Assembly (NCBI GenBank): GCA_023818725.1
Contig: JAMWBX010000009.1
Span: forward strand, 1 to 11,127
Reading direction: 5' to 3'
Origin: Candidatus Omnitrophota bacterium
Lineage (GTDB): Bacteria; Ratteibacteria; UBA8468; B48-G9; DTJG01
DNA: 11,127 nt
Position numbers and translations under genes: made by a program. The notes under the pieces are model-generated. The model saw only the letters and a list, made by a program, of their open reading frames with translations. It was not told the origin of the DNA and ran no database searches. Shown piece after piece: positions 1-11,127 of this stretch (the first letter of the stretch is position 1; each line of letters starts with the position of its first letter).

Positions 1-38
1 ATACCAGCAGGCCCGGAACCAATAATGGCAAGATCCAT
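1..38 (-). CDS. trxB: Thioredoxin-reductase-like FAD/NAD(P)-binding protein, N-terminal fragment
   Basis: Only the first 12 codons and two bases lie in the window; the gene continues past the left edge. They read MDLAIIGSGPAG, the beta-strand and GxGxxG turn of an FAD-binding Rossmann fold as it begins in thioredoxin reductases and related flavoproteins. I chose ATG 38-36 because it opens the Rossmann frame; the ATG at 42-40 is out of that frame. An AGGGGG ribosome-binding site (45-50) lies 6 nt upstream, one of the few good ones in this operon. The gene begins 3 bp after the ccdA stop codon, so it is the next gene of the same transcript. TrxB would supply NADPH-derived electrons to thioredoxin, the usual electron donor of CcdA. 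The family call rests on the fold motif plus context; another pyridine nucleotide-disulfide oxidoreductase remains possible. Confidence 0.72.
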   Translation of the reverse strand, partial: MDLAIIGSGPAG

Positions 39-41
39 CCA

Positions 42-728
42 TTACCCCCTTGAAAGAAGATAGAAGGAAAACAAAAGAAGAACAATACCTGCAAACATTC
101 TCACAATTCTTGTATGCCGCACCACAAATGATTTAGGTTTTCTGAATGAAGAAAAAAATGTGGCAAAAACAAAAAAAGGTATTGATAGACCGATAGAATA
201 AAAAAGAAGCATTAAAATGCCCTTCGACACAGTATCCTGAGTTGAAGCTATAGTGAGAATTGCTCCAAGAACAGGTCCAACACACGGAGTCCAGGAAATC
301 CCCAGTACAGCGCCGAAAACAATAGCACCAAAACCAGAAGGCTTTTTCCTGAATTCAGGAGAAAACTTCCCACCAAAAATAGAAAAAAAATGTGTTAGCT
401 CGAGAGTTTCAAGGCTAAAGAAAAGCATTATTATTCCAGCCAGTATCTTAAAGTATTTAAGGTGAAAGGCAAGAAATCTACCAATAGATGTGGCTGAAGC
501 TCCAAGTATAACAAAAACGATCGTGAAGCCAGCACAAAAAAGCAAAATTGAAACAAGAAATTTACTTTCCCTTTTGATTCCATCGAGCGTTGAACCGAGA
601 ATAAAAGAAAAGTATGCTGGAATAATAGGCAAAATACACGGCGAAAAAAACGAAACAATTCCTCCCAAGAAACTTACGAAGAAGGCTAAATACAATCCCG
701 ACGCTGTGTTTTCAAGTATCTCTATCAT
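42..728 (-). CDS. ccdA: CcdA/DsbD-type transmembrane thiol-disulfide interchange protein
   Basis: A 228-residue polytopic membrane protein of the CcdA family, normal in length. Two conserved halves are visible: SPCILPIIP around Cys31 and TPCVGP around Cys149. These are the two membrane-embedded cysteines and proline-rich turns that define CcdA and the DsbD core. About six hydrophobic segments cover residues 13-35, 55-80, 92-112, 133-160, 168-193 and 209-226. In the family the cysteine pair accepts electrons from cytoplasmic thioredoxin and passes them to extracytoplasmic thiol proteins, for cytochrome c maturation or disulfide reduction. No cytochrome c assembly gene is present here, so the second role fits better (inference). 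The first 17 bp overlap the radical-SAM gene, and the trxB-like gene starts 3 bp beyond the stop. No Shine-Dalgarno is visible, so translation is probably coupled to the upstream gene. Confidence 0.93.
   Translation of the reverse strand: MIEILENTASGLYLAFFVSFLGGIVSFFSPCILPIIPAYFSFILGSTLDGIKRESKFLVSILLFCAGFTIVFVILGASATSIGRFLAFHLKYFKILAGIIMLFFSLETLELTHFFSIFGGKFSPEFRKKPSGFGAIVFGAVLGISWTPCVGPVLGAILTIASTQDTVSKGILMLLFYSIGLSIPFFVFATFFSSFRKPKSFVVRHTRIVRMFAGIVLLLFSFYLLSRG
45..50 (-). promoter_or_regulatory. Ribosome-binding site of the trxB-like gene
   Basis: AGGGGG on the minus strand, separated by six bases from the ATG at 38-36. It overlaps the final codons of ccdA and supports the start at 38 over the out-of-frame ATG at 42. 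Confidence 0.6.
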
Positions 729-1437
729 AGTATCTTATACAACACTTTTCAAAAAAATTCGAAACTTCTTGGCGGAATTTTTCCATCTCTTCTCTGGAAA
801 ACGGTATTCCACCATCAAAGTCATCCCTTACCCCGATCTTTCTGTATTGCTGAAGTACATATTTTTTTGCGCCTTTTAACACCATTGCTATCTGTCTTAT
901 ATTTTCAATAGTATGAAATGAACGAACAAGTGTTGTTCTGAATTCATAATCAATACCGGAATTCATCACAATTTTTGCAGAGGACAAAATATTTCCGAGC
1001 ATCTTATCGTCAACCAGAATCCCGCTTGTCATTGAATATAATTGAGGCTCAAAAGCATTTTTGATATCCATTGCAACACCATCTATCAAACAGCTGTCTA
1101 TAAGAAATTTAAGCTTATCAGGAAAGGTGCCATTTGTATCAACCTTAACAGCCATATTTATCTTTTTAATTTCTCTTATGATGTCGAATATAAAGTCAGA
1201 AACAAAAGGTTCACCCCCTGTGATAACAACCCCATCTATGAAATCTTTATTTTCATCCAAGTATTCTTTTATCACACCCAAATCGATATCTTCAAAATTT
1301 TGAGGCTCCTGAATAAGTTGCCAGTTCTGGCAGAATGGACACCTCAAATTACATCCCGTTAGAAAAATAACCGATGTAATCTTCGAATCCCAATCACAAA
1401 AAGAATTTTTTACCCAGCCTTTGATTGAGTATTTCAT
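712..1437 (-). CDS. Radical SAM activase of the anaerobic ribonucleotide reductase-activating (NrdG-like) type
   Basis: A 241-residue radical SAM protein. The motif GCNLRCPFCQN gives Cys29, Cys33 and Cys36 (CxxxCxxC) for the 4Fe-4S cluster. GGEP at 74-77 is the SAM-binding motif, and TNGT (101-104) and MDIK (123-126) are the expected later strands. Overall this matches proteins annotated as anaerobic ribonucleoside-triphosphate reductase activating protein, which install the glycyl radical on class III reductases. Pyruvate formate-lyase activases look similar, so the exact client is uncertain, and no glycyl-radical enzyme gene lies in the window. It starts 13 bp after the anti-sigma stop and overlaps ccdA by 17 bp, so it belongs to the thiol operon. 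A link to a thioredoxin-reduced class III reductase is attractive but inferred. No ribosome-binding site is evident before the ATG. Confidence 0.88.
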   Translation of the reverse strand: MKYSIKGWVKNSFCDWDSKITSVIFLTGCNLRCPFCQNWQLIQEPQNFEDIDLGVIKEYLDENKDFIDGVVITGGEPFVSDFIFDIIREIKKINMAVKVDTNGTFPDKLKFLIDSCLIDGVAMDIKNAFEPQLYSMTSGILVDDKMLGNILSSAKIVMNSGIDYEFRTTLVRSFHTIENIRQIAMVLKGAKKYVLQQYRKIGVRDDFDGGIPFSREEMEKFRQEVSNFFEKCCIRYYDRDT

Positions 1438-1450
1438 CTGGAAAAGAAAA

Positions 1451-1699
1451 TCAAAATTTTTCTTTTTCGTAAATTACTCGTAGCTGATAGAAGACTCTTT
1501 CGGAAACATTTTTTGGAACTCTACAGTATTTTTTTCTGTAATAAACCCTTGATAGGGCGACAGTTTTTTTTAATGTGCGAAAAAAGATCATGCAATTCTC
1601 ACAGAGACAAAGATGTTCTTCAACAAGATCAACCTCGTCCTGGTCAAGGTCTCTGTCAATGTACAAAGAAATTAATTCAAGGTATTTTTCACATTTCAC
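1451..1699 (-). CDS. Zinc-binding anti-sigma factor (ZAS / zf-HC2 family), RsrA-like
   Basis: An 82-residue soluble protein. His29, Cys33 and Cys36 form the HxxxCxxC signature of zinc-associated anti-sigma factors, and Cys3 lies 26 residues before the histidine. As I recall, RsrA binds zinc through Cys11, His37, Cys41 and Cys44, which is the same spacing. Further cysteines are Cys31 and Cys59. There is no transmembrane segment, so it should act in the cytoplasm by holding the ECF sigma factor encoded just upstream. The GTG start (1699-1697) overlaps the sigma TGA in a GTGA junction, typical of stoichiometric translational coupling. If it behaves like RsrA, oxidation would form a disulfide, release zinc and free the sigma factor; that is inference from spacing and context. 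The radical-SAM gene follows after 13 bp. Confidence 0.86.
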   Translation of the reverse strand: MKCEKYLELISLYIDRDLDQDEVDLVEEHLCLCENCMIFFRTLKKTVALSRVYYRKKYCRVPKNVSERVFYQLRVIYEKEKF

Positions 1700-2322
1700 A
1701 AATTCGCTCCCTGCTTTAGGTCTGTCTGAAAATAAGAAGAAAGCTTATCCCGTAAAAACATTCTACTTCTATGAACCCTTGATTTCACAGCAGGAACTGA
1801 TAGATTAAGCATTTTGCTAATCTCTTCAGTTGAAAAACCCTCGATATCATGAAGAACAAATATTGTTTTGTATTTACCGGGAAGGGCATCAACAGATTTT
1901 TCTATGAGAAGCTTCAATTCCTGATTTCTCAAATGTGCACCGGGATCATTGGACCAATCCGGGGCATTATGGTAGAATTCAAGCTTTCCGGAATCACTCG
2001 TTTGTGTTTCGAACCTTACCAGCGGAATTTTCTTTTTTCTCATCTTCATAAAAGCGTTGTTTGTCGCTATCCTGTAAAGCCATGTTGAAAAGGCAGACTT
2101 ACCTTCAAATTTGGGTAGCGCATAATAGGCATTGATGAAGGTTTCCTGAAGAAGGTCTGCTGCATCCTCTTTATTACCAAGGAGTTTTAACCCGAGATTA
2201 TAAATTTTTGCCTGATTTCTTTTCACAAGTTCTTCAAAGGCAGCATGGTCCCTGTTTTTTGCCCTTTCTATCAGTTCATTTTCTTTCAGTAAGGCAAGCG
2301 CCTTTGGCTGATTGTTTTGCAT
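1696..2322 (-). CDS. ECF (RpoE-like) RNA polymerase sigma factor
   Basis: From ATG 2322 the product has 208 residues. Region 2 spans about 20-97, with DLLQETFINAYYAL (region 2.2) and STWLYRIATNNAFMKMRKKK (2.3/2.4). Region 4 spans about 145-195, with the helix-turn-helix GFSTEEISKMLNLSVPAVKS. There is no region 3, as expected for the ECF class. It should direct RNA polymerase to a stress regulon while restrained by the downstream zinc anti-sigma factor, which it overlaps by 4 bp. An in-frame TTG at 2349 would add nine residues. I prefer the ATG because region 2 is complete without them and an extended -10 sequence lies directly before it; neither start has a clear ribosome-binding site. The tauE-like gene ends 41 bp before this ATG. 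An ordinary-looking -10 at its own start suggests the sigma gene also has a basal promoter. Confidence 0.9.
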   Translation of the reverse strand: MQNNQPKALALLKENELIERAKNRDHAAFEELVKRNQAKIYNLGLKLLGNKEDAADLLQETFINAYYALPKFEGKSAFSTWLYRIATNNAFMKMRKKKIPLVRFETQTSDSGKLEFYHNAPDWSNDPGAHLRNQELKLLIEKSVDALPGKYKTIFVLHDIEGFSTEEISKMLNLSVPAVKSRVHRSRMFLRDKLSSYFQTDLKQGANL

Positions 2323-2329
2323 ATCATTT

Positions 2330-2338
2330 ATTATATCA
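2330..2338 (-). promoter_or_regulatory. Extended -10 promoter element before the sigma gene
   Basis: On the minus strand TGA-TATAAT reads as a consensus extended -10 (TATAAT at 2330-2335, TG at 2337-2338). A weak -35 (TGGAAT, 2353-2358) lies 17 bp upstream. The predicted transcription start, about 2323, falls one base before the ATG at 2322, implying a leaderless mRNA. It may be an internal promoter of the operon. Confidence 0.5.
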
Positions 2339-2363
2339 GAATGTAGCAAGTAATTCCAGAAAC

Positions 2364-3116
2364 CTATGGATTTCTTATCAAAACAGCAATTCCCGCAAAT
2401 AAGAGCACAATTGAAAAAATTTTTCTCAATTTCCGATTGTCTGTGCGCAAACTGAGTGTAGAGCCTGCCTTCGCTGAAAACACAGCAACAAGACCAGCAA
2501 TTGTTCCTGAATGAAAATCAACAAATCCGTGGTAAATGTATCCTGCAACTGCTGATAGGGAATTGAACATAACCACTGATAATACAGTACCTATACAAAT
2601 CTTCATTGGAAGGCCAATCCACAAGTGTAAAAAGGGGACAATAACAATTGCCCCACCAACACCACCCATACCCGAAATAAGCCCTCCACTAAAACCAATC
2701 AACGTTAAACGAACGGGTAAAGACCTCATCTGTGCAGAACAACCCCTGTCAGTCAACCTTTCCCTCCACATGTTAATAGCCAGAGCAATTGCAAGAGACA
2801 CAAAAAAAATCTTTACCACGGTCTCCGGGAGGTTGGCAGTTATTAAACTTCCATACTGTGCACCAATTATGCCGGAAATAATAAGAAAGCCTGTAATTTT
2901 GAAGTTTACCTGGTCTGCTTTCATATGAGAAATGAAAGCAGAAACAGAAGAAACCAGTATAACAAGCAGGCTTGTGCCAATGGCTTTTTTTATTGACCCT
3001 AACATAAAGTAAAACACTGGAACATAAATAGTGCCGCCGCCCATACCGGTCAATCCGCAAATAAACCCTGCAAATAATCCGGCAACAAAAGATTCAAGGA
3101 TAGATATAAATTCCAT
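2364..3116 (-). CDS. TauE/SafE family membrane transporter (sulfite/organosulfur-type anion exporter)
   Basis: A 250-residue polytopic protein of usual family length. It shows the two-fold internal repeat of TauE/SafE: GLTGMGGGTIYVPVF at 21-35 and ISGMGGVGGAIVIVPF at 147-162. Each is followed by a helix with a conserved threonine and serine-rich stretch (IGTSLLVILVSSVSA; IGTVLSVVMFNSLSA). About eight membrane segments are predicted. Characterised members export sulfite, sulfoacetate or related anions, but substrates vary and cannot be read from sequence. It starts 3 bp after the CvpA-like stop codon with no ribosome-binding site, implying translational coupling, and the sigma gene follows. 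A role in exporting a sulfur compound would suit the redox-thiol context; that is inference. Confidence 0.92.
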   Translation of the reverse strand: MEFISILESFVAGLFAGFICGLTGMGGGTIYVPVFYFMLGSIKKAIGTSLLVILVSSVSAFISHMKADQVNFKITGFLIISGIIGAQYGSLITANLPETVVKIFFVSLAIALAINMWRERLTDRGCSAQMRSLPVRLTLIGFSGGLISGMGGVGGAIVIVPFLHLWIGLPMKICIGTVLSVVMFNSLSAVAGYIYHGFVDFHSGTIAGLVAVFSAKAGSTLSLRTDNRKLRKIFSIVLLFAGIAVLIRNP

Positions 3117-3119
3117 TTT

Positions 3120-3986
3120 TTAATACTTGATTGGTTCACGCCACAGCATAATGTCAAGTTTATTATTGTCGATTGGACAGGGACCTGTAGGTGTTACCCA
3201 GGTTCGATTTCTCCATGTGCCGCAATCAAATTTAACATCCTGACGCGCAAGTTCGACAGGACAGGCGTTGTAAAGTTTGTGATAACCTTCATATGTCTGA
3301 CAACCATCTGAAATCCTGCCACATTTTTCACATACAAATTTAGGAACTATACCTGCGCCATATTTTGCGACATATCCATTAAACATAACCTTTCCACCAC
3401 AGTTGATGCATGTATAACCTTCAAATTTCGTAAAATTCATCTTGATTAATCTGGCTTTCATTACATCCTGCCCAAACTCATCCCTGTATGCAACAGGAAG
3501 GATTATCATCTTTGGAAGTGTAATATTGTGTCTTTCAATCTGTTCATAAAACCTAAGTAATCCCTGCCTTACAAAAGGAGCAAATTTGGTCTGATTTATC
3601 TCCTCGCCCATCTGAACAGAAGAAGTCATAATCACCAGAATGCTTGCTGCGCCAACAAATCCATTTACTGTACCCAGCACTCCGCCAAAAATTCTGTCAA
3701 TAACCGGTTTTATTTCAACCTTTCTCCTTATTGCCTCGAGGAAAAGAATAATAACGAGACAAAAAATTATGCTTGAAAGAATGAAAAAAATAAGTTCGAC
3801 AGGTGTCCCTGTGATTCCGAATTTCTTAAAAAGTTTTACTGGCGCAGGATAAACAAACGATCCAATAAAAATCCCAAAGGCAATTCCAAAGATATCTATC
3901 AGTGTACCGAGAAAGCCACGGCCGGCTCCCCCTAAAATGCCCCCAAGCACAAACATTATAACGATGACATCCAGTCCACCAAACAC
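3120..3986 (-). CDS. CvpA-like four-helix membrane protein with an eight-cysteine C-terminal domain
   Basis: The 288-residue product begins like CvpA family proteins: hydrophobic segments at about 4-20, 27-46, 62-84 and 103-123, with GRGF after the first. The remainder, about 165 residues, is not typical of CvpA. It contains Cys193-x2-Cys196 and Cys219-x2-Cys222, resembling a zinc ribbon, then Cys229, Cys242, Cys255 and Cys270 at near-regular 13-15 residue spacing. The most basic loop (RRKVEIK, 88-94) lies between helices 3 and 4, which by the positive-inside rule puts the C-terminus outside the cytoplasm. Mycobacterial MarP, a CvpA-like membrane domain with a periplasmic protease, has that layout. 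An extracytoplasmic Cys-rich domain would be a natural CcdA client (inference). The start is GTG 3986: a TGA lies five codons upstream, and no Shine-Dalgarno is visible. The function of this combination is unknown to me. Confidence 0.82.
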   Translation of the reverse strand: MFGGLDVIVIMFVLGGILGGAGRGFLGTLIDIFGIAFGIFIGSFVYPAPVKLFKKFGITGTPVELIFFILSSIIFCLVIILFLEAIRRKVEIKPVIDRIFGGVLGTVNGFVGAASILVIMTSSVQMGEEINQTKFAPFVRQGLLRFYEQIERHNITLPKMIILPVAYRDEFGQDVMKARLIKMNFTKFEGYTCINCGGKVMFNGYVAKYGAGIVPKFVCEKCGRISDGCQTYEGYHKLYNACPVELARQDVKFDCGTWRNRTWVTPTGPCPIDNNKLDIMLWREPIKY

Positions 3987-4126: not shown

Positions 4127-4525
4127 TCATCTTCTATCCCGTCTTTTCCAATAATCTTGCTTGATAAAATCGACATTCCTGTATTCCTGACGTATTTGCT
4201 CTCTGCGTTTTTTCATGGTCTGGTATTCTTCGTTATCTTTCAGCCTTTCTTCTATCTTCTCTCTTAATTGTTGCTGAAGTTGCCTTATTTGTTCAACCAG
4301 CTGTTTCAACTCCTGATCCTGCTGAATAACATTCCTTTCTATGTCAAACATCTTCTTTTGGATTTCAAGTAGTTCCTTCACCTTACCAGCAATTTCAGGA
4401 GTTCCAGGTGCGACTTTTTCCAGCGAAGGTTGATGCTGAGATGTTCTTAATAAAGGTGCATCCCTGCCATGAGCAAACGTAAGAAAGACTCCACAGATTC
4501 CGGTTATTATCATCACTTTTTTCAT
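4127..4525 (-). CDS. Secreted coiled-coil protein of unknown function
   Basis: A 132-residue protein I do not recognise. Residues 1-20 look like a signal peptide: two lysines, a hydrophobic core and AHG as a plausible cleavage site before Arg21. There is no lipobox. A proline-containing linker follows (about 21-45). From about 48 to 122 the sequence is almost entirely charged or glutamine-rich helix with heptad-like leucine and isoleucine spacing, for example QLVEQIRQLQQQLREKIEE, so a long coiled coil is likely. The C-terminus is strongly basic. It would act in the periplasm, perhaps as a small chaperone or sensor loosely like Spy/ZraP-type proteins, but their diagnostic motifs are not seen. 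It is the first gene of the minus-strand cluster, with its own strong promoter. The gap of 140 bp to the CvpA-like gene makes co-transcription possible but unproven. Confidence 0.78.
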   Translation of the reverse strand: MKKVMIITGICGVFLTFAHGRDAPLLRTSQHQPSLEKVAPGTPEIAGKVKELLEIQKKMFDIERNVIQQDQELKQLVEQIRQLQQQLREKIEERLKDNEEYQTMKKRREQIRQEYRNVDFIKQDYWKRRDRR

Positions 4526-4571: not shown

Positions 4572-4592
4572 CCTTTAGACGAATGAAAGAAT

Positions 4593-4608
4593 ACCCGGTT
4601 TATCGGGT
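4593..4608. repeat. Inverted repeat (distal CCCG/CGGG dyad)
   Basis: ACCCG (4593-4597) and CGGGT (4604-4608) flank a 6-base spacer, giving ACCCG-N4-ATCGGGT-like symmetry. A second, similar dyad sits inside the HAD promoter at 4664-4680. The region between the two divergent genes (4526-4695) otherwise contains only their two promoters. Confidence 0.45.
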
Positions 4609-8720: not shown

Positions 8721-10547
8721 TCAGAAAAAGGGGCTTGTATCCACAGTAACTTTTGTTATTCTATACTTTTCAACAACTTCTTCTAGAATTTTTAAAGCCC
8801 TTTTCCTTTCGGCTATCTTCCATAAAAAAACTTCCTTTTTGTCCGAAGATATTTCATAAATCTCCCCAATTTTTCCAAGCTCTTCAAAAACTCTGTCTCT
8901 GTTTTGTTTCCATTTTTTCCCATAAAAAACTATTTCAATCAGGTCTCCATAAGGTGGAAACTTCAGTTTCTCCCTTATAAATAGCTCCCTTTTGTAAAAG
9001 TTTTCATAATCGTTTCTGACCACATCACCATAAACATCAAGCCCTGGATTTCTTGTTTGGATCACAATGTATCCATTGTTCGGCTGCATGAACGCCCTGA
9101 TTCTCTCAACGAGGAGAAAAAATTTTTCCTCGCTTCTAAAGATGCTTCTTGCTGCAATCGTGTCTGCATTAGCAAAAATCACAAGCCCTGGTGAAATCTT
9201 TTCAAGGTGTTGAACTATTTTTTGTGTACCAATCAGAATATCAGGGGTGAAATCAGGCGAGTCTTTATCAGATATAATGCCTGCCCTGAAGTCCGGATAA
9301 ATGGTTTTTAAAATCTCGATAAGTTTTTGAATGCCTGGCTGTCTTATCCCTGGCGTTCCTTTTTTACATAACGGACACTTTTTTGGAATCTCTGCTAACT
9401 TCTTACAACTGCTGCAGTAAACATATTGATCAGAAATAGGTACAACATTACCTCCACATTTCTGACACATAAATACACCTTGGCATTTTTTACACATAAC
9501 AAGCCGCGCATAACCTTTGATATTGTGAATGATAACAACCTTATTTTTTTCAATGATTGCCTTTTCAAGAAGATGCTTTGAAATATCTGTGAGAATCTGT
9601 TTTTGAGATTGCCCCTGAATCTGGCTTATAACGACTTTGACATTGCCATTTTTCTCACCAATTTCCACCAGGGCAGCATTTTTACTCTTTATCATAAAAA
9701 CGTCTGTGACATCAGGTTGAAAGACAGTAAAGATTACAGGAACCTGCAGAATTTCTGAAATCATAAGAGCAACTTCCCTTGAATTGTATCTCGGATCTTT
9801 GTTTTCTTTATGGCCGTATTCTGAGGGTTCATCCACAATGACAACTGATAGATCAGAAACCGGCGAGAAAAGGCAGAATCTTGTACCAATAATGATGAGT
9901 TTTTTCTCTTTTATAATCCTTTTCCATCTGATGGTTTTCTCCATTTTGCCCATCTCGCCTGTAAGGACAATAATCCTGTTGCCATAAACTGGTTGCAAGA
10001 TCTCATAATATCGGTTAACATCTGTCTGATTGCTAAAAACCATCAGACATGAACCATTACATGTTAGTGGTACCTGAAGGAAGAAATTTTTCTTTTTTTC
10101 AGGAGTTGAAAATTTCACAACGCATATCTTTCTGGAATGCGCATTCATTGCCTCAAAAACAGTCTGTGGCAGCATTTTTTCATTAAAAGAAACAGTGGCT
10201 GGTTCTTTGAGTTCTTCATGTTCAGGAATCATTTTCTTAAGTGCAAGGCCCTTACCTATTGCGGCAAGAACACTTCCAAAAGATGAAAAATAGTTTTCTG
10301 ACATACGCTGTGCAAGGTGAAGAAGATATTCATTAATAAGTGGAAAATCATCATACAGTTTAAGCACGTCCTTATATCTGAAATTCCCGGTTAGACCAGG
10401 GCCAACAACCCAGCCAGTAACTTTTCTATTATGAAAAGGAACCTTGACCCTTTGTCCGGGTAAAAGACCAATCGTACTTTTATATGTGAACAATTTTCTT
10501 GCTGGTATATCTATTGCAATGGAGACCAATCCCTCAATTTTTTCCAT
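8721..10547 (-). CDS. priA: PriA-like primosomal protein N' with degenerate helicase motifs
   Basis: A 608-residue PriA homologue, shorter than the usual 730 or more. The N-terminal 3'-DNA-binding domain (about 1-100) is clear, with GLLPGQRVKVPF and GWVVG. Eight zinc cysteines remain as four CxxC pairs (352/355, 361/364, 378/381, 391/394). The C-terminal region is also recognisable (IQTRNP, then KFPPYGDLIEI). The helicase motifs are lost. No GxxGSGKT loop occurs where Walker A belongs (about 144-158). Walker B reads VDEPSEYG in place of VDEEH. Motif III reads FTVFQPD instead of SATPS. GTQ lacks the following KGH, and the GRAGR arginine finger is RAFMQ. Probably it acts in replication restart as a DNA-binding platform without ATPase. 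I chose ATG 10547; an in-frame TTG at 10553 adds two residues. It starts 2 bp after the RACo-like stop, suggesting coupling. Confidence 0.92.
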   Translation of the reverse strand: MEKIEGLVSIAIDIPARKLFTYKSTIGLLPGQRVKVPFHNRKVTGWVVGPGLTGNFRYKDVLKLYDDFPLINEYLLHLAQRMSENYFSSFGSVLAAIGKGLALKKMIPEHEELKEPATVSFNEKMLPQTVFEAMNAHSRKICVVKFSTPEKKKNFFLQVPLTCNGSCLMVFSNQTDVNRYYEILQPVYGNRIIVLTGEMGKMEKTIRWKRIIKEKKLIIIGTRFCLFSPVSDLSVVIVDEPSEYGHKENKDPRYNSREVALMISEILQVPVIFTVFQPDVTDVFMIKSKNAALVEIGEKNGNVKVVISQIQGQSQKQILTDISKHLLEKAIIEKNKVVIIHNIKGYARLVMCKKCQGVFMCQKCGGNVVPISDQYVYCSSCKKLAEIPKKCPLCKKGTPGIRQPGIQKLIEILKTIYPDFRAGIISDKDSPDFTPDILIGTQKIVQHLEKISPGLVIFANADTIAARSIFRSEEKFFLLVERIRAFMQPNNGYIVIQTRNPGLDVYGDVVRNDYENFYKRELFIREKLKFPPYGDLIEIVFYGKKWKQNRDRVFEELGKIGEIYEISSDKKEVFLWKIAERKRALKILEEVVEKYRITKVTVDTSPFF

Positions 10548-10549
10548 AT

Positions 10550-11127
10550 TCAAAAGAAAAGGGATTCAGCAAAAACACTCTGAAAATCAGGATATAGTGA
10601 TAATTCTACGATCTTTGTTTTTTCTGCAATCTCTAGGAGTTCTTTCTTCAAGTCAGAATTACACAAAAATAGAAGTGTGGAGGAAAGAGAAGTGTTACCT
10701 GAAGGAACAATTTTCTCTGCTGGGAAATCAGGCAACATCTTAATCTTCTTGATGTTTTCCAGATTGACGAAATTTCCAAGCGCTCCAGCAAGATAAACGT
10801 TTTCTATGTCTTCTAACTTTACCCCTTTTATTCTCATTAAAATTTCTATTCCACTTCTGATGGCCGCTTTGGCTGCCTGAAATTCCCTGACATCCTTCTG
10901 GGTAAGATATATTGAATTTTCCTGCCCTGGTTCGAAAACAAAAACACCGTTTATCATATGCTTTTTCAGTTCTGATTCTGAAAACTCTTCAAACCTACCT
11001 GAATCGTTGATAATTTTATGTTCTTTCAATACACTGACAATGTCCACCAGGCCCGATCCACAAATACCCTTCAATCTATTTCCACCAATCACCTGCCACT
11101 TAAGAGAACCATCAGAAACCCAACATT
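10550..11127 (-). CDS. RACo-type reductive activator of corrinoid proteins, C-terminal ASKHA domain (partial)
   Basis: The frame is open to the right edge, so the 5' part is missing; 191 residues and the stop are present. They match the C-terminal ATPase domain of RACo-type ferredoxin-like activators: KGICGSGLVDIV near the start, LTQKDVREFQAAKAAIRSGI in the middle, VYLAGALGNFVN and a MLPDFP segment. The full protein normally has an N-terminal 2Fe-2S domain, not seen here. RACo uses ATP to drive reduction of inactive Co(II) corrinoid to Co(I), keeping methyl-transfer corrinoid proteins active in Wood-Ljungdahl or methylotrophic pathways. The GTG at 11092 is only an internal valine, because the residues before it in frame (DGSLKWQ) fit the family. 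It precedes priA by 2 bp in an apparent two-gene unit. No methyltransferase gene is in the window, so the client protein is unknown. Confidence 0.87.
   Translation of the reverse strand, partial: CWVSDGSLKWQVIGGNRLKGICGSGLVDIVSVLKEHKIINDSGRFEEFSESELKKHMINGVFVFEPGQENSIYLTQKDVREFQAAKAAIRSGIEILMRIKGVKLEDIENVYLAGALGNFVNLENIKKIKMLPDFPAEKIVPSGNTSLSSTLLFLCNSDLKKELLEIAEKTKIVELSLYPDFQSVFAESLFF

Follow-up and report, generated by a model that had tools for sequence, protein, structure and literature searches.

Three described pairs of extracytoplasmic function (ECF) sigma factor and anti-sigma factor can be compared with the locus considered here, namely SigR-RsrA of Streptomyces, SigH-RshA of Corynebacterium and Mycobacterium, and SigW-RsiW of Bacillus. 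In Streptomyces, trxBA is not known to belong to the sigR operon. Zinc anti-sigma factors are generally described as carrying H-x3-C-x2-C with a fourth ligand (Cys or His) 23-26 residues upstream, and the soluble, single-domain RsrA is assigned a Cys-His-Cys-Cys (CHCC) site made of C11, H37, C41, and C44 (PMC4960319). The RsrA residues L18, F21, F34, F38, and V54 are reported to drive the oxidised fold (PMC5358783). In Corynebacterium, it was reported that SigA promoters drive sigH and a SigH promoter drives rshA, that thioredoxin and heat-stress genes are targets, and that the SigH-type consensus is GGAA-N16-19-GTT (PMC3489674). The mycobacterial SigH regulon is described as including dnaK and Rv0991c (ruc) (PMC4803200), and Ruc as a redox-activated chaperone induced by SigH (PMC7448276). 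Here, a putative pair from Candidatus Omnitrophota is compared with these systems. It lies on a stretch of 11,127 nucleotides (the window), which is a complete contig (JAMWBX010000009.1; G000:C260 in our numbering) of a 1.47 Mb draft genome (GCA_023818725.1) that is 64% complete. The pair consists of the ECF sigma factor gene sig (1696..2322, minus strand) and of asf (1451..1699, minus strand, GTG start), which encodes a soluble zinc anti-sigma factor of 82 residues. We consider it probable, with considerable room for doubt, that the two form a cytoplasmic thiol and heat-shock switch whose regulon lies behind the promoter motif GAAAC-N16/17-CATCTAA and whose trigger would be redox.

The Anti-Sigma Factor and the Sigma Factor

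The ligands Cys3, His29, Cys33, and Cys36 (C-N25-H-N3-C-N2-C) had been read correctly in an earlier, sequence-only reading of this DNA, and they are invariant in 25 of 25 aligned anti-sigma factors (the window protein and 24 relatives, 30-71% identical). A loss of these ligands in orthologues, which had been named beforehand as a refuting outcome, was therefore not seen. Tyr13, Thr46, and Pro62 are likewise invariant, and no cysteine beyond the four ligands is conserved among the 25 sequences. The relatives were gathered by genome searches; a protein-database search returned just the query and one 73% relative. The alignment leaves out two sequences, one cut at a contig start (L061, G021) and one that runs on into hsp20 (L252, G031), as well as the paralogues L028-L031, L040, L041, and L048. 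An AF2 model of the window protein (mean pLDDT 79.6, pTM 0.54) has four helices, at residues 3-15, 20-32, 34-57, and 63-81. The protein carries HxxxCxxC with a fourth ligand 23-26 residues upstream, has a helical anti-sigma fold, and is encoded directly downstream of an ECF sigma factor, which places it among ZAS or class I anti-sigma factors (PF13490 zf-HC2, 35.1 bits; cutoff 22.2). Neither a membrane domain nor an extra domain was found in it. About 72% of soluble class I anti-sigma factors are reported to bear zinc motifs, which the authors tie to redox sensing (PMC7406223).

The cysteine spacing had been taken as a sign of an RsrA-like switch. As an RsrA diagnostic it was rejected, since zinc anti-sigma factors share the general pattern and RsiW, which is reported to be redox-insensitive, also has a CHCC site (PMC5358783); the RsrA equivalog model TIGR03988 is not reached by the window protein (25.0 bits vs. 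a cutoff of 62.5). The solubility of the protein and the invariance of its four ligands are more telling than this spacing. By ungapped position and by eye, the RsrA core residues L18, F21, F34, F38, and V54 correspond to I10, Y13, V26, L30, and T46 in the window. The likeness to RsrA comprises the CHCC site, its spacing, and the soluble single domain (PMC4960319), whereas the missed TIGR03988 model and the lack of a conserved cysteine beyond the ligands set the two apart. Foldseek returned RsiW as the best match, and in a second fold search RsiW was tied with MucA; RsrA structures were absent from both searches, which excludes nothing. SigW-RsiW is the closest system by sequence and fold search. 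However, RsiW is described as membrane-bound and removed by proteolysis (PMC5358783), unlike the soluble 82-residue protein of the window, which is clustered with trxB.

The sigma factor (208 residues; PF04542 Sigma70_r2, 63.6 bits; PF08281 r4_2, 56.9 bits) most likely begins at ATG 2322 and not at TTG 2349, as first proposed, because relatives begin or align from the ATG codon. Its close relatives occur on public contigs that bear the label Candidatus Omnitrophota or unassigned bacterium and, on one contig, TA06. Among PDB matches the bit scores were 103.5 for SigW, 91 for an AlgU-type factor, 84.5 for RpoE, 64.7 for SigH, and 30.1 for SigR region 4, and among NCBIfam models 169.8 for PRK11922, 156.4 for SigW, 121.4 for RpoE, and 74.5 for SigH_actino. 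By these search scores the SigR/SigH group is not the closest, and the predicted promoter motif does not follow GGAA-N16-19-GTT. The predicted regulon (thioredoxin system and chaperones) would match the SigR/SigH type if this sigma factor reads the promoter. Like SigH-RshA, the pair joins an ECF sigma factor to a soluble zinc anti-sigma factor. Its predicted targets overlap with those reported for SigH in dnaK, clpB, the thioredoxin system, and a Ruc-like zinc ribbon (PMC3489674, PMC4803200, PMC7448276), the FmdB targets matching the layout described for Ruc (PMC7448276). In both systems a housekeeping-type promoter is found on the sigma gene and a stress promoter on the anti-sigma gene or the next genes, as far as the Corynebacterium report describes them. 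The differences are that the Omnitrophota sigma factor is nearer SigW/RpoE, that its predicted −10 element is CATCTAA instead of GTT, that the promoter also stands before groES and superoxide reductase, and that trxB lies within the sigma cluster. Most likely, the pair works like SigH/RshA; it is kept outside that group because of the nearness of the sigma factor to SigW/RpoE and the different −10 element.

A CATCTAA Promoter Motif and Its Predicted Targets

The predicted regulon, which was absent from the sequence-only reading, would consist mainly of heat-shock chaperones together with superoxide reductase and thioredoxin. The strict motif, GAAAC-N16/17-CATCTAA, has 72 matches in 35 genomes, with about 0.45 per Mb expected by chance (from base composition at the G+C of the window). 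Sixty-two of them lie just upstream of chaperone or redox genes or of asf: DnaK (22), Hsp20 (15), GroES (6), ClpB (6), superoxide reductase (4), trigger factor (3), asf (3), thioredoxin (2), and FmdB (1). In the genome of the window and six others of its genus, all 15 strict matches precede chaperone or redox genes, and the two in the window's own genome stand before groES and superoxide reductase (G000:C96, C258). Target classes were read from translations, and Pfam confirmed eight classes, each through one representative, as well as two TrxB types. A loose pattern, GAAAC-N17-19-ATCTAA (N17-18 in part of the genomes), was also searched. In the same seven genomes, 20 matches have a non-C base before ATCTAA; four of these had no locus and were left unread, and among the 16 that were read, two are followed by FmdB and one by Lon, at distances of 61-179 bp.

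The motif was also found inside the cluster of the pair in two families, f2 (same order as the window) and f5 (G029, G031, and G033, another family of the class). In f2, GAAAC-N17-CATCTAA lies upstream of hsp20, just past the anti-sigma stop codon, at eight of nine loci, the ninth having CATCAAA. In all three f5 genomes the motif stands before asf, and in G031 before hsp20 too. Moreover, hsp20 still bears the motif where it is on a separate contig from asf (G010, G011, G012, G013, G015, and G020). In another lineage (G097), the gene of a sigma relative (43% identical) is itself preceded by GGAAC-N17-CATCTAA-ATG. By eye, one of the three motif matches in this genome (L267) precedes a YeeE/YedE-like transporter gene, and in G010 and G024 (L248, L249) a strict motif lies in an open reading frame, with the gene of a flavodiiron-like protein, another oxygen-defence function, following about 248 bp downstream.

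Genomes with and without the anti-sigma factor were then compared. At least one strict match was found in 25 of the 26 genomes with the anti-sigma factor, and none in the six anti-sigma-free genomes outside the carrier genera (G008, G009, G028, G030, G032, and G034; drafts, 62-93% complete). Three of the latter (G030, G032, and G034) have only distant ECF sigma factors (29-36% identity). GroES genes were picked by family, PF00166 being found in 25 of 30 genomes, and their upstream regions were read at 26 of 29 loci and in the window's genome (the start was not found in L229, L230, and L233). The strict motif precedes groES in six of six genus genomes with the gene, and a CATCAAA form does so in two of two genomes from f3, a further family of the order. 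No motif was found at groES of two f5 genomes or of five non-carriers outside the carrier genera (G008, G009, G030, G032, and G034).

Gene Order and Thioredoxin Reductase

On the minus strand, the genes are transcribed in the order cc132, cvpA-like, tauE, sig, asf, nrdG2, ccdA, and the start of trxB. The ECF sigma factor, the 82-residue anti-sigma factor, CcdA, and the TrxB-like start were all named in the sequence-only reading and are all present on that strand; nrdG2 (712..1437), between asf and ccdA, was overlooked. The nrdG2 gene encodes a radical SAM activase of the anaerobic ribonucleotide reductase type (TIGR02495, 181.4 bits; cutoff 131.15), and ccdA (42..728, minus strand) a CcdA-like protein of the DsbD transmembrane family (PF02683 DsbD_TM, 70.1 bits). 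Since trxB is truncated by the contig end to 12 codons reading MDLAIIGSGPAG (1..38, minus strand), its identity rests on relatives. The order cvpA-tauE-sig-asf-nrdG2 is kept in all five genus relatives in which the anti-sigma factor was found (seven were searched), and ccdA-trxB come next in the four whose contig reaches far enough, with a full thioredoxin-reductase-like gene of 286-289 residues. The wider order (f2 and f3) has the anti-sigma factor in 17 of 18 searched genomes, the exception being G019, and TrxB is found just downstream of it in all 17, directly in eight and after hsp20 in nine (contig ends truncate two of these genes). In f5, the genes after the anti-sigma factor are hsp20 (in G031 alone), that of an FmdB zinc ribbon, nrdG2, and TlpA- or TrxA-like genes, with the nrdG2 copy, a more distant one, located one or two genes downstream.

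Among the loci read, ccdA is clustered only within the genus of the window. CcdA as the conserved core of the module, as first suggested, was therefore rejected, trxB being the wider partner; of the proposed order, sigma/anti-sigma/trxB is conserved across the order and ccdA only in the genus. The pair keeps thiol and chaperone genes as neighbours, but their exact identity varies. The earlier thiol-redox interpretation is thus partly supported, and it gains from the invariant ligands and from the presence of TrxB next to the anti-sigma factor across order and genus.

The TrxB of the genus has an unusual sequence. In all four genus proteins (L067:12045-12905, L043:13224-14093, L044:3885-4745, and L068:7613-8473) the NADPH motifs are lost, with GEGKxV for GGGxxA and no HRR, while GGGxxA and HRR are kept in 16 of 16 same-order TrxB sequences covering the region. 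Against TIGR01292 (cutoff 343.45), the genus form scored 286.8 (L067) and the order form 386.5 (L047). From these sequences, the genus TrxB may use another electron donor. The length of 6gna, which we take to be a ferredoxin-dependent thioredoxin reductase, is 288, and that of the genus TrxB is 286. DvTRi is likewise described with GEG and without HRRD (PMC5627308), comparable to the genus form with GEG for GGGxxAxE and no HRR. The genus protein differs from thioredoxin reductases without NADPH motifs in that its best PDB scores are with ordinary thioredoxin reductases, and the same-order TrxB differs from the DvTRi type in retaining GGGxxA and HRR. Near trxB in L067, an open reading frame on the opposite strand resembles, by eye, the gamma subunit of 2-oxoacid:ferredoxin oxidoreductase.

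Promoters of the Sigma Operon and Other ECF Sigma Factors

The module had been proposed to be autoregulated, and for this the window gives no support. A sigma70-like extended −10 element, TGNTATAAT (2330..2338, minus strand), lies 7 nt ahead of the sig ATG and is conserved, 6-8 nt ahead of that codon, in six of six aligned genus sequences. No CATCTAA promoter was found in the window operon. In the genus relatives, a search allowing one mismatch found no copy of the motif from 1.2 kb upstream to 1.8 kb downstream of the start of sig. The clusters of f2 and f5 do contain the motif, ahead of either hsp20-trxB or asf, a placement that parallels the arrangement reported for Corynebacterium sigH/rshA (PMC3489674).

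A second ECF-type element, P1 (TAAAC-N16-CGTCTAA; 4575..4602, minus strand), was found 49 nt ahead of cc132, with TTGACA and TATAAA after it. The P1-type sequence AAACY-N15-17-CGTCTAA is present at all seven genus loci read (the window, G001-G005, and G007), and in G004 it stays with cc132 although this gene no longer precedes the cvpA-sig operon. P1 was not accepted as the autoregulatory promoter of the sigma factor. The pattern AAACY-N14-17-CGTCTAA gave one match in the window's genome and 16 in seven relatives, compared with 3 and 38 for the reversed control, and the linkage to cc132 in G004 and the likeness to the promoter of another ECF sigma factor count further against it.

That other factor, a second ECF sigma factor of the genus (about 175 residues; L094-L096, L098, L099, and L102), has CTAAAAC (CTAAAAT in L098) followed after N15/16 by CGTCTAA right before its ATG in six of six genomes. 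Similar motifs precede cc132 and, in three genomes, secreted proteins with FAQTTSTRTST starts, a pattern suggestive of an envelope regulon of its own whose transcripts would be nearly leaderless. A third type of ECF sigma factor has TGTCTAATG at the start codon at six of six loci (L097, L100, L101, L103, L104, and L115), mostly with GGAAC upstream; in the window's genome it adjoins a long, probably membrane-bound anti-sigma factor.

Proposed Mechanism and Alternative Explanations

What the computation shows directly is the gene order, the invariance of the ligands, and the promoter motif with its downstream genes. From them we infer that the anti-sigma factor binds the sigma factor, that the sigma factor reads the motif, and that the trigger is oxidation. 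While reduced and loaded with zinc, the 82-residue protein would hold the ECF sigma factor, and oxidation of the Cys3/Cys33/Cys36 zinc site, possibly also heat, would free it. RNA polymerase with the freed sigma factor would then transcribe the GAAAC-N16/17-CATCTAA promoters of dnaK, groES, clpB, hsp20, and the trigger factor gene, as well as those of superoxide reductase, thioredoxin, and the zinc-ribbon protein of FmdB/Ruc type; the hsp20-trxB genes next to the pair would be a further target in nine genomes of the order. Thioredoxin reductase from the same cluster may help to re-reduce the anti-sigma factor (via thioredoxin) and so end the response, and in the genus of the window the CcdA and NrdG2 of the cluster may draw on the same reducing power.

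Several observations weigh against this reading. The window operon itself lacks the motif, even with up to two mismatches allowed, and only P1 before cc132 turns up. One carrier of the sigma/anti-sigma pair (G005) has no strict match, and no motif was found at the nine main groES copies of f2 that were read, most of which have TTGACA/TATAAT. In G029 and G033, the match before asf sits within the 3′ end of the sig coding sequence, and the remaining two matches in G097 are not before chaperones. Ten of the 72 strict matches lie elsewhere (four inside coding sequences, six before other genes), and the loose pattern gave 135 matches in the 35 genomes vs. 75 for the reversed control. Conversely, three congeners of carriers (G001, G006, and G019) hold eight strict matches, all before chaperones or trxA, and neither an anti-sigma factor nor a close sig was found in them. 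The G001 contig (92% complete genome) contains tauE and extends 85 nt beyond it with no visible sig start, and nrdG2 is likewise absent from the drafts of G001 and G006. Two readings fit, one in which the block dropped out of these assemblies and one in which the motif is read there by a different sigma factor, and confidence in the link between sigma factor and motif was lowered for this reason. As for the trigger, the invariant Thr46 stands at the position of RsrA V54, where RsiW has Ser, and the CHCC site of RsiW (C3/H30/C34/C37) is reported to form a disulfide and yet keep the sigma factor (PMC5358783).

These last points would fit a zinc site that is structural, with the same sigma factor and regulon answering to heat or unfolded protein (through melting, proteolysis, or chaperone titration), so that the pair would be a switch for heat shock, not for redox state. 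RsiW provides an example of a CHCC site with a structural role (PMC5358783), no further cysteine is conserved, and the predicted targets are mostly chaperones. However, trxB, trxA, superoxide reductase, and the Ruc-like FmdB are redox genes, the anti-sigma factor has neither a membrane nor an extra domain, and the zinc motifs of most soluble class I factors were linked by the authors to redox sensing (PMC7406223). We regard a purely structural site as unlikely, if still a serious contender. Somewhat less probable again is that another ECF sigma factor reads the CATCTAA promoters and the window pair controls its own or unlinked genes only. Each genus genome has 3-7 sigma-70 region 2 genes (RpoD counted), a closely similar motif (CTAAAAC/T-N15/16-CGTCTAA) precedes the gene of the second ECF sigma factor in six of six genomes, and chaperone genes of G001, G006, and G019, in which the pair was not found, retain the CATCTAA motif; yet the motif occurs within the sig-asf cluster in f2 and f5, and the three genomes with distant ECF sigma factors only have no strict match. 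That the thiol genes share an operon by accident with an envelope-stress pair of the RsiW/SigW kind appears very improbable. Although SigW and RsiW are the closest solved relatives and the upstream tauE, cvpA-like, and cc132 genes encode membrane or secreted proteins, the anti-sigma factor is soluble, the trxB cluster recurs across the order, and the genes behind the motif are cytoplasmic.

Other Features of the Window

Upstream of sig and in the same direction lie tauE (2364..3116), a tauE/safE family permease gene (PF01925, 171.3 bits), the gene of a cvpA-like membrane protein (3120..3986; PF02674, 44.9 bits), and cc132 (4127..4525), all on the minus strand. The tauE gene is found upstream of sig in five of five relatives, and cc132 was present in all six genus relatives examined (G001-G005 and G007), its product being a probable secreted coiled-coil protein by eye (signal-like N-terminus and coiled coil). 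At its C-terminus, the cvpA-like protein is extended by a Cys-rich part (CINCGG ... CEKCG) with the look of a zinc site. Farther along the contig, a PriA-like protein of 610 residues (8721-10553, minus strand) has the 3′ DNA-binding domain and scores 190.2 against TIGR00595 (cutoff 230.35); Pfam shows no helicase domain, and it may be a degenerate PriA.

Implications for Omnitrophota

The host bacteria probably live without oxygen, as suggested by NrdG2, superoxide reductase, and the ferredoxin oxidoreductase-like neighbour. No study of ECF or anti-sigma regulation in Omnitrophota was found in the open-licence literature, as judged from titles and the openings of abstracts, which is weak evidence of absence. 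What began as a guess about one operon becomes a testable regulon, with a defined promoter, named targets, and a candidate sigma/anti-sigma pair. If this reading is right, the coupling of heat shock to thiol redox would have arisen or been rewired outside Actinobacteria, in probably anaerobic organisms. It is also conceivable, although we lean slightly against it, that across the order a thiol-gated ECF sigma factor nearer SigW than SigR/SigH is the main heat-shock regulator of dnaK, hsp20, clpB, and, in the genus, groES, coupling the chaperones to the thioredoxin pool, for which its own cluster supplies the reductase. If so, this would be an independent route to the logic of SigH, using another promoter code, in probably anaerobic bacteria.

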